From positions 1 to 24,201 of IMG/VR virus record IMGVR_UViG_3300046506_000048: a stretch of DNA of 24,201 nt; one strand, written 5' to 3'. Below the pieces are notes generated by a model. It was not told where the DNA came from, did no database searches, and saw nothing but the letters and a program-made list of their open reading frames with translations. Below, piece by piece: positions 234 to 23,761 of this stretch. The stretch comes from a virus. Position 1 is the first letter of the stretch. The number at the start of each line of letters is the position of its first letter. Position numbers and translations under genes: made by a program.

Positions 234-797
234 ATGGGCATCTATAAAGACGTGATGGGGACTTTGGTCCGGGTGCTGGCCGCTGACAACATCGACAACA
301 GCACGAAACAGTCATGGCAAAAACTGATCGATGCCGACGCGCGACAAGGCGGAACCGGAAGCACTATCTCGGTCCGCGACAAGTTCGACTATGACTGCTG
401 CCTTTATGCGCTGCTGCATCGCGAACTGGATCAGGCCCACTGGGATGTTCTCGTGGCCAGGTACTCAACGCACAAGGCGAACAAGGTCGCATCGATCGGC
501 AGGCTTGTATCCCGCATGAGCTCACCAGCGCCCCAATTGTTCATCTATAAGGCGCTCACCGCCTGGGCAATTCCGAAACTCAAAGGTGTTCAGACCGGCA
601 AGCGATCCACCGACATGATCGTGCTGCCTGCCGAGTTCTACGACATGAATACCTGGGACCTGGCTGGCTCGCCTGAGCGTACTCGCCGCAACTGGCGGTC
701 CGGTATCCATAAGCGTTTGGAGGCACTTGAGGAAGCGGCTGTTATCCATGCAACCGAGATATTCGACGCTGAACAAATATTCGTGGACGCCGCTTGA
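234..797 (+). CDS. Candidate late-gene antiterminator or activator (Q-position protein)
   Basis: This 187-aa soluble protein has no signal peptide or membrane segment. The segment from about residue 138 to 165 (TWDLAGSPERTRRNWRSGI and following) looks like a helix-turn-helix with a basic second helix, of the kind seen in phage late regulators. I do not recognise a named family by sequence. The functional idea comes mainly from position: it is the last gene before the lysis genes and ends inside a candidate promoter that is followed within about 60 bp by an intrinsic terminator. This is the Q-pR'-tR' layout of lambdoid phages. The start is ATG at 234 with a weak GGGGGA upstream. It could instead be a transcriptional activator of the late promoter, or something unrelated. 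Confidence 0.7.
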   Translation: MGIYKDVMGTLVRVLAADNIDNSTKQSWQKLIDADARQGGTGSTISVRDKFDYDCCLYALLHRELDQAHWDVLVARYSTHKANKVASIGRLVSRMSSPAPQLFIYKALTAWAIPKLKGVQTGKRSTDMIVLPAEFYDMNTWDLAGSPERTRRNWRSGIHKRLEALEEAAVIHATEIFDAEQIFVDAA

Positions 798-823
798 CCG
801 TAATGGCCGTTTGGCCGTAAATT
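794..823 (+). promoter_or_regulatory. Candidate late promoter (pR'-like)
   Basis: TTGACC at 794-799 matches five of six bases of a sigma-70 -35 box. TAAATT at 818-823 matches four of six bases of a -10 box, with an 18-bp spacer. It overlaps the stop codon of the upstream gene and points at the lysis genes. A start near 830 would give a leader of about 50 to 75 nt before the terminator at 883-906. This is a reading by eye; the -10 match is mediocre. Confidence 0.4.
795..818 (+). repeat. Three direct repeats TGRCCGT in the promoter spacer
   Basis: TGACCGT (795-801), TGGCCGT (804-810) and TGGCCGT (812-818) lie head to tail with steps of 9 and 8 bp. The first and third copies are both followed by AA. 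The array fills the space between the candidate -35 and -10 boxes. It could be the binding site of the protein encoded just upstream. Confidence 0.6.
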
Positions 824-882
824 TAACCCATCATGTCGATCTTGCGTACGGTGATACGCGACGACAAACAGAACACACGAAA

Positions 883-906
883 CCCGGCCCTCGCGCCGGG
901 TTTTTT
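883..906 (+). terminator. Intrinsic terminator in the late leader
   Basis: CCCGGC at 883-888 pairs with GCCGGG at 895-900 around a 6-nt loop, followed directly by six T. It lies between the candidate promoter and the holin gene, so late transcripts must read through it. A weaker hairpin, GCGTA (844-848) with TACGC (855-859), sits just upstream in the leader. Confidence 0.85.
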
Positions 907-939
907 CGTTTCCAGCTCCCGGAAAGGGAGGACATTCGG

Positions 940-1266
940 ATGCCGACGATGCCCGAAAAGACGCCTGAATTCTGGGCAGCACTCTGGCTGGCCTTGAGCA
1001 ATCCACTATGGCAGGGCGCGATCATGGCCTTCGCAATCTCCCTTCTTCGCATCATCTGGGACGCCAAGGAAATCAGCGTTCGCCGGACTTTGGCTGAATC
1101 ATTGATCTGTGGCGGTCTGAGCCTGTCTGCCAGCACGCTGATCGACTGGATGGGTTGGCCGCCGAGCCTTTCTGTTGCAGCTGGAGGCACCATCGGTTTC
1201 ATCGGCGTTACTGCAATCCGGGAGCTGATTATCAGGTTCCTCGGTCGCAAGGCGGATTCGGTATGA
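940..1266 (+). CDS. Phage holin, lambda S type
   Basis: This 108-aa membrane protein times lysis by opening the inner membrane. It begins MPTMPEKTPEFW and has hydrophobic segments at about residues 24-42, 54-70 and 76-92, ending in a basic RFLGRKADSV tail. Both the MPEK start and the layout match the lambda S holin family (Phage_holin_3_1). The reading frame is open further upstream, but ATG at 940 has a good GGGAGG ribosome site (926-931) and gives the family length. A second in-frame ATG three codons in (MPT-MPEK) recalls the two starts of lambda S. Its stop overlaps the next gene's start in ATGA. Holins of this class make large holes that release cytoplasmic endolysins, which fits the signal-less endolysin at 23315. 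Confidence 0.9.
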   Translation: MPTMPEKTPEFWAALWLALSNPLWQGAIMAFAISLLRIIWDAKEISVRRTLAESLICGGLSLSASTLIDWMGWPPSLSVAAGGTIGFIGVTAIRELIIRFLGRKADSV

Positions 1267-23314: not shown

Positions 23315-23761
23315 ATGCCATCAGTTACCCGAGGGGTCCGAAATAACAACCCTGGCAACATCGACTACAACCCGCGCAATCAGTGGCAGGGCCAACTGGC
23401 GCCGGATCCGGCGATCGAGAAGCGATTCGCTCGGTTCGATACCGCCGAGAACGGTATTCGTGCGCTGGCCAAGCTGGTGCTGGCCTACCGGGGCAAAGAT
23501 GGGCAGCCGGGCATCGGCGGGCCAGGTATCGACACTGTTCGCGAGGTGATCAGCCGCTGGGCGCCCGGAGTTGAGAACGACACTGAGTCGTACATCAAGG
23601 ATGTGTCCGCCAAGGTGGGCGTTGCGCCGAATCAGCCCATCGATCTACGCAACTTCCGCACGCTGATCGCTATCACTACGGGAATCATCCAGCATGAAAA
23701 CGGTGGGGTCCCGTACGCAGCGCCGGTGATTGCCGAGGGTGTGCAGCGCGCATTGAGTTGA
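23315..23761 (+). CDS. Probable endolysin (RGxRNNNPGNI family)
   Basis: This 148-aa soluble protein starts MPSVTRGVRNNNPGNIDYN, with RNQWQG, ARFDTAENGIRALAKLV, VISRWAPGVENDTESYI and IIQHENGG. Proteins of this family are sometimes labelled 'structural protein' or P5-like in phage annotations, but in many Pseudomonas prophages they occupy the lysis-gene place. A peptidoglycan-cutting role is my inference, since no other endolysin is visible here. There is no signal peptide or SAR anchor, so it would need the lambda-type holin at 940 for release. ATG at 23315 has GGAG upstream (23303-23306). Its stop directly abuts the stop of the opposite-strand gene. Confidence 0.75.
   Translation: MPSVTRGVRNNNPGNIDYNPRNQWQGQLAPDPAIEKRFARFDTAENGIRALAKLVLAYRGKDGQPGIGGPGIDTVREVISRWAPGVENDTESYIKDVSAKVGVAPNQPIDLRNFRTLIAITTGIIQHENGGVPYAAPVIAEGVQRALS

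Follow-up and report, generated by a model that had tools for sequence, protein, structure and literature searches.

The promoter directly downstream of the gene at positions 234 to 797 of the window (the whole stretch of viral DNA that was analysed, 24,201 nucleotides long) is very probably the loading site of a Q-type processive antiterminator. We infer both the binding and the antitermination, and the reading rests on the conserved architecture of the locus, the predicted fold of the upstream protein, the position of its gene, and the covariation of one of its helices with a tandem repeat in the promoter. Standing against it are the lack of sequence similarity to known Q proteins, the modest Foldseek E values, the reported loading of AlpA as a single molecule, and the existence of some loci without the element or the terminator. 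Our best reading is that phrog_3412 is an unrecognised family of Q-type antiterminators, which occurs in phages D3, F10, MD8 and many other Pseudomonas phages and uses a tandem site like that of phage 21.

The promoter module downstream of the 234-797 gene

We compared the window with 132 other loci, taken from 80 viral contigs (kept of 273), 36 genome loci, and 16 regions chosen from 62 phage records. A homologue of the 234-797 protein was encoded in 133 of the 133 loci, and a promoter directly after the gene was callable in 130; one locus ends at a contig edge (L038) and two gave no callable promoter (L111 and L125). The −10 call in L103 was set by hand. The features of the window on which the analysis draws are as follows.

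234-797, + strand: candidate Q-like antiterminator gene, 187 aa (phrog_3412, E 1.9e-77; unknown function in PHROGs)
669-710, + strand: predicted recognition helix, codons 146-159, whose residues vary with the repeat sequence
794-799, + strand: −35 hexamer TTGACC, overlapping the stop codon TGA of the gene (795-797)
795-801, + strand: copy 1, TGACCGT, read directly from the letters
804-810, + strand: copy 2, TGGCCGT, read directly from the letters
804-811, + strand: upstream half-site TGGCCG TT, 8-bp period conserved
812-818, + strand: copy 3, TGGCCGT, read directly from the letters
812-819, + strand: downstream half-site TGGCCG TA, 8-bp period conserved, running into the −10 hexamer
818-823, + strand: −10 hexamer TAAATT, spacer 18 (−10 called in 130 of 133 loci)
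829-834, + strand: putative −10-like pause element CATCAT, −1 to +5 if A830 is +1
834-866, + strand: predicted leader RNA hairpin (fold prediction)
843-846, + strand: TGCG, pause-like motif at about +14 to +17
879-904, + strand: intrinsic terminator (terminator-like hairpin), a tR'-like barrier
940-1266, + strand: first late gene, lambda-family holin (PF05106, E 3.9e-30; TIGR01594)

Three features of the Q-type class are present at this locus, namely, an element in the spacer, a −10-like sequence, and an intrinsic terminator ahead of the late genes. Nine of 12 promoter positions agree with the sigma-70 consensus, and transcription would start at A830. Of 130 loci, 128 have ATC at the −10-like place, 125 of them together with T+5, and the two loci lacking ATC read CATAAT; judging from the sequence, polymerase may pause at CATCAT (829-834). 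T[GA]CG, that is, TGCG or TACG, lies near +14 in 126 of the 128 loci having ATC, and the TGCG at 843-846 resembles the pause consensus. A terminator-like hairpin was found in 124 of 126 loci, compared to 27 of 378 shuffles, with a median end at +66; by the rule used for these 126 loci, L109 and L121 had no terminator. A cruder T-run check on 41 contigs found by promoter pattern was positive in 30.

Many leaders can form a hairpin between the −10-like element and the terminator, a conclusion for which the support is moderate. Across 23 leaders, 78.3% of cells paired, compared to 31 to 58% in slid versions. A set of 45 leaders of our own choosing gave a mean z of −1.32, with 14 of the 45 under −2, and the covariation score on 23 of those 45 was reached by 20 of 500 shuffles. 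RNAalifold returned no consensus pairs for the 23 leaders, and an Rfam search of window positions 600 to 1000 gave nothing near the gathering score. In the window, the hairpin extends over both the TGCG motif and the last part of the −10-like element, and the 5' and 3' arms change together in several lineages.

Large open reading frames follow the holin gene on the same strand. Between positions 940 and 1797, spanin-like genes come after the holin gene, and no endolysin was recognised in between; the stretch at 23315-23761 had no Pfam match.

Conservation of an 8-bp tandem among relatives

A sequence-only reading of this DNA had described three head-to-tail copies of TGRCCGT in the promoter spacer, at 795, 804 and 812. 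These positions are exact, and the letters also confirm the extension of copies 1 and 3 to TGRCCGTAA, 17 bases apart. Within the window alone, the triple repeat did not exceed chance: there are 9 occurrences of TGRCCGT where 6.98 are expected, and three near-copies of a 7-mer within 26 bp occur at 4 start positions (two of them in one A-rich run), while 20 single-base shuffles gave 0 to 6 each. We rejected a three-copy element, as copy 1 consists of the −35 hexamer TTGACC (794-799) and the stop codon TGA (795-797). Of the 130 loci in which a promoter could be called, 128 have TTGAC, but only 27 have the TTGACCGT needed to complete copy 1. Among 106 close relatives (at least 80% identity and a protein of window length), 25 complete copy 1 in this way, and 90 retain TGGCC in both copies 2 and 3. 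The 9-bp lag from copy 1 to copy 2 was no commoner than chance across 13 clusters, defined by a protein identity of <70%. Because TGGCC stands twice in 90 of the 106 close relatives and copy 1 is completed in only 27 of 130 loci, the element, as judged from sequence comparison, is formed by two copies with an 8-bp period, copies 2 and 3 (804 and 812); its reality is shown by this comparison and not by the window alone. Of the proposed three-copy element, therefore, copies 2 and 3 stand, with their conserved period, and copy 1 falls to the −35 hexamer and the stop codon.

The half-sites differ widely across the 13 clusters and include TGGCCG, TGAGCG, TGAGAG-like, GCAACA (D3), CGAACA (MPK9), TGTCGC (Aurca01), CCATCA and others. 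All 13 clusters nevertheless had the two-copy architecture, the two half-sites sharing 4 to 6 of their 6 letters. Self-identity at a lag of 8 was 0.596, compared to 0.264 (sd 0.034) in shuffles, a value reached by 0 of 2000; at a lag of 9 it was 0.189. A half-site was identical to its own partner at 0.760 of positions and to the partner from another locus at 0.377 (0 of 5000). A later set of 177 further loci, in 158 of which a promoter was called, formed 18 clusters. We left out 3 of these, which were 90 to 100% identical to earlier proteins, and the remaining 15, all <80% identical to all 133, gave a lag-8 self-identity of 0.617 against 0.270 (sd 0.032; 0 of 2000). In 14 of the 15, five or all six of the 6 half-site positions matched; L374, which does have a promoter, matched at only 3. 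Lag 4 was also raised (2 of 2000 in the 13-cluster set, 0 of 2000 in the 18-cluster set), as was lag 12 (44 of 2000 and 2 of 2000), and we read both as overtones of the 8-bp repeat. The repeats could have proved unconserved among relatives that share the upstream protein, a result the sequence-only reading had named as speaking against its proposal; for copies 2 and 3, this comparison found the opposite.

We inspected 8 of the 19 loci in which no promoter was called, and 5 showed visible 8-bp repeats that the caller had missed. At four loci (L308, L362, L322 and L327), the element is still present but displaced, 487 or 664 to 666 nt downstream of the gene; at L322 and L327 the caller had put a repeat-less promoter beside the gene. 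Intervening DNA at these four loci displaces the whole promoter module, with the repeats and the conserved leader start kept. No recognisable element was seen in L125 (PS-1), L111/L375, L331 (where the promoter call is doubtful) and L333, and eight relatives carry unlike half-sites, TGGCGG/TGATCR or TGGCGC/TGATCG, with 2 to 3 of 6 matches. Searching for the whole promoter pattern while ignoring the protein returned 41 viral contigs; the gene ending on the −35 hexamer belonged to the phrog_3412 family in 41 of 41, and its last aligned codon ended one base into TTGAC, likewise in 41 of 41. As the pattern contains TTGAC and many of the contigs are shared with the first set, this result is a consistency check and not new evidence.

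The upstream protein and its predicted recognition helix

The 234-797 protein matched only phrog_3412, with nothing in NCBIfam and nothing above the cut-off in Pfam. Sequence searches of solved structures gave no match for the single protein and one match, at E 0.54, for the profile. We then turned to an AlphaFold2 model (pLDDT 81.6, pTM 0.79), for which Foldseek placed AlpA first, with a probability of 1.00 and modest E values of 0.019 and 0.029. VIA also placed AlpA first (Z 12.4 and 11.8), followed by Q-lambda (7.1 and 5.3) and rows at 4.1 and below, and a model of a distant member, L114, gave AlpA at 12.2 and 11.3, Q-lambda at 7.0 and 5.0, and the next row at 3.8. The superpositions of these predicted models on AlpA extended over most of the chain, with 140 residues at an rmsd of 4.1 (Z 12.4) and 134 residues at 3.9 (Z 12.2). 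As the tool warns, helical models can reach Z scores of this size by chance; the gap in Z to the unrelated rows and the recurrence in a second member argue that the AlpA match is not of that kind. Six proteins (L104, L105 and L113-L116) carry an insertion of about 40 to 45 residues between about window residues 120/121, which is absent in others.

The position of the gene is that of a Q gene in several phages. It lies after ninG, directly or past one small gene, in D3, MD8, JBD44, PMG1 and PseuP_222, and the first four of these have an annotated holin some 0.1 to 1.7 kb further downstream; no holin is annotated within the region fetched for PseuP_222. The regions fetched for F10, MPK9, Solano and Hali have no annotated ninG, and lysis genes still follow. 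The depositor of PseuP_222 labelled its copy 'transcription regulator, anti-termination', a label that the passages found from the PseuP_222 phage paper do not discuss. Similarly, the passages returned by a search of open-licence PMC articles contained no text assigning antitermination to the phrog_3412 family; the YA3 paper concerns a Pseudomonas phage whose Q belongs to a different family (Phage_antitermQ). The family member of MR15 (L123:2390-2935) is annotated 'putative prepilin peptidase', apparently in error. Directly upstream of the Q-like gene, the window encodes a small CxxC-bearing protein (3-230, phrog_5085) that is also found in MD8, where the gene at L120:2664-2960 is annotated 'antitermination protein Q' and matches phrog_5085, of unknown function, with weak DnaJ-like matches; the Q-like protein of MD8 is its downstream neighbour.

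The sequence-only reading had suggested that the repeats may be the recognition site of the neighbouring gene's product and that they might co-vary with it across relatives. Such covariation was found. In 87 distinct close proteins, repeat type was most strongly associated with columns 153, 159, 155, 156, 146, 184, 149 and 152, seven of which fall within 146-159, the eighth being 184; the long C-terminal helix of the model begins at 148. Mean excess information was 0.284 in columns 146-160 and 0.065 in columns 161-175, although the latter lie nearer the repeats. Synonymous positions showed no gradient and did not follow repeat type, and neither did codons 161-187, between the helix and the repeats. 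We therefore found no support for simple linkage of the gene end and the promoter as the cause of the covariation. In six loci of the TGATC type, codons 141-160 were 0.803 identical within the group and 0.601 to the main type, compared to 0.825 and 0.830 for codons 1-140 and 0.760 and 0.752 for codons 161-187. Six residues, including four at 152-159, separate the L007 protein from that of L052, and the repeats of the two loci differ too. Together with the architecture in 13 of 13 and 14 of 15 clusters, the covariation of the repeat letters with one predicted helix supports the suggestion that the upstream protein recognises the repeats.

Across 31 clusters, both half-sites have TGGCC in 4 of the 6 clusters with R149 and in 0 of the 25 without it (p 0.00048), the Fisher tests on these clusters ignoring relatedness because there is no tree for the 31. 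Three of the four R149/TGGCC clusters (L345, L388 and L436) are 38 to 50% identical to the window protein and 40 to 68% to each other. Exceptions to the R149 rule, lacking TGGCC, are L124 (ATGTCG) and L375, and L376 reads, by eye, HERT (R149) with TGTCCG. The E153 group, in particular, may represent a single lineage, and so may the Y152 group. Covariation was also not strict among close relatives, in that N153 is absent from 3 of the 74 distinct proteins whose site has TGGCC in both copies. Repeat type switches often on a weakly supported tree, on which only 3 pairs fall on starred branches, too few for a sign test based on the tree to become significant. Judging from where the alignment with AlpA ends (181 to 171), the terminal helices would be shifted by ten residues, and T150, R149 and R152 would then correspond to AlpA T140, S139 and H142, which are reported to read the AlpA element (PMC9371919).

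The repeats might instead be an operator through which the same protein acts, as an ordinary activator or repressor, on initiation and not on termination. Covariation of helix and repeats implies recognition and not by itself antitermination, and spacer sites can affect initiation too. The AlpA/Q fold, the terminator straight after the promoter in 124 of 126 loci and the fixed −10-like element speak against an initiation operator, as does the sigma-70 match; with 9 of 12 consensus positions, the promoter may need no activator. We consider this explanation unlikely. Far less probable still is that a host factor or the phrog_5085 product of 3-230 binds the site: the annotation of the small MD8 neighbour as antitermination protein Q would favour it, but that neighbour matches only phrog_5085 and weak DnaJ-like entries, D3 carries repeats of its own although the small gene in that place is a different one (phrog_7514), and the covariation was found with the 234-797 protein, the protein analysed for it. 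Neutral tandem duplication, or a by-product of the −35 hexamer, the stop codon and codon usage, would account for copy 1 and for a triple repeat within chance in the window, and is hardly credible for copies 2 and 3, which in two cluster sets keep their 8-bp period while their letters change together and track a helix of the protein.

Proposed mechanism and comparison with known systems

Under the antiterminator reading, RNA polymerase would start constitutively at the promoter (794-823) and make a short leader from about 830, halting at the terminator (879-904). The 234-797 protein would bind the TGGCCG half-sites at 804 and 812. It would probably load in two copies, with each half-site taking one, in the manner of phage 21 Q; loading in two copies is a part of the reading that we regard as likely. 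With polymerase held by sigma at the −10-like element (829-834), the protein would engage it, and would then ride with polymerase and block terminator hairpins, so that the late operon, from the holin gene onward, would be transcribed. We likewise infer the sigma-dependent pause, the nozzle action and the readthrough of the terminator.

We also put forward, tentatively and as a reading that may well fail, that an AlpA-fold Q loading as two protomers on an 8-bp tandem re-targets repeatedly through few helix residues (149, 152 and 153), so that a helix-to-base code would be readable and orthogonal Q/site pairs would occur naturally. The geometry would be dictated by polymerase, since the unrelated 21Q has the same one, and the leader hairpin may form immediately beyond the exit-channel ring and so prevent backtracking by locking the RNA. 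The natural variation in helix and site provides ready matched and mismatched pairs, making sequence recognition by Q directly testable. More broadly, the analysis gives a likely function to an unannotated family, and hence suggests how many temperate Pseudomonas phages probably turn on their lysis and virion genes. Viral contigs encode members of the family by the hundreds (561 of 583 stretches that matched a pattern), and so do 62 phage records, those of the classic phages D3 and F10 among them.

Phage 21 offers the closest site. In Shi et al. (2019; PMC6606751), the element consists of TGAGCA direct repeats in which C:G pairs occupy −21 and −13; substituting these pairs affects antitermination, and each subsite binds one 21Q, from different helix faces. 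With C at −21 and −13, the 8-bp period is common to phage 21 and the window, and the analogy to Q21 drawn in the sequence-only reading, from direct repeats at a late promoter, was right. Like the locus described here, that of phage 21 Q (PF06530, phrog_943) has two direct repeats in the −35/−10 spacer, a −10-like element, a terminator-like hairpin directly downstream and the Q gene immediately upstream; the half-sites 804-811 and 812-819 correspond to 21Q subsites 1 and 2. The 17-mer deduced for phage 21 was found in 88 contigs, a few being chance matches elsewhere, and in L136 the gene upstream of it is 21Q (6jnx, E 1.9e-109). At three loci of the MPK9-like clade (L435, L437 and L438), the tandem reads TGAGCAAATGAGCA, letter for letter the site of phage 21 Q, and its occurrence behind a Q family with no sequence relation detected is apparently convergence. 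The 234-797 protein had no match to PF06530 at E up to 1, and no homology to 21Q was detected, as hhalign gave no profile match, with only two sequences on the 21Q side. 21Q was not among the fold matches listed for phrog_3412, a family whose predicted fold matches AlpA.

AlpA of Pseudomonas aeruginosa shares with the window locus a binding element in the spacer and an intrinsic terminator downstream, and is the best fold match for two members. The AlpA element CACGAT lies at −1 to +5, with A+1 and T+5 required, and CATCAT (829-834) would lie in the same register, with A+1 and T+5, if +1 is placed as above; 804-811 is also at the position of the AlpA ABE, as at that of 21Q subsite 1, to within 1 bp in our putative numbering. 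AlpA differs in being a host cell-lysis regulator with a single GGGACG element, on which it is reported to load as a single molecule (PMC9371919), whereas the window has two tandem half-sites of another sequence at a phage late operon. Lambda Q at pR' resembles the present case in having its gene between nin genes and a holin gene and in being the second-best fold (Z 7.1 and 7.0); it differs in that these Z scores are low and profile searches gave no sequence relation. According to PMC9371919, lambda Q also has an inserted zinc finger. Since the fold matches AlpA, the spacing matches phage 21 and AlpA is reported to load singly, the phrog_3412 family is best described as combining an AlpA-like fold with a 21-like site. 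That one tandem spacing serves Q families with no detectable sequence relation suggests that polymerase geometry, and not ancestry, may fix the spacing.
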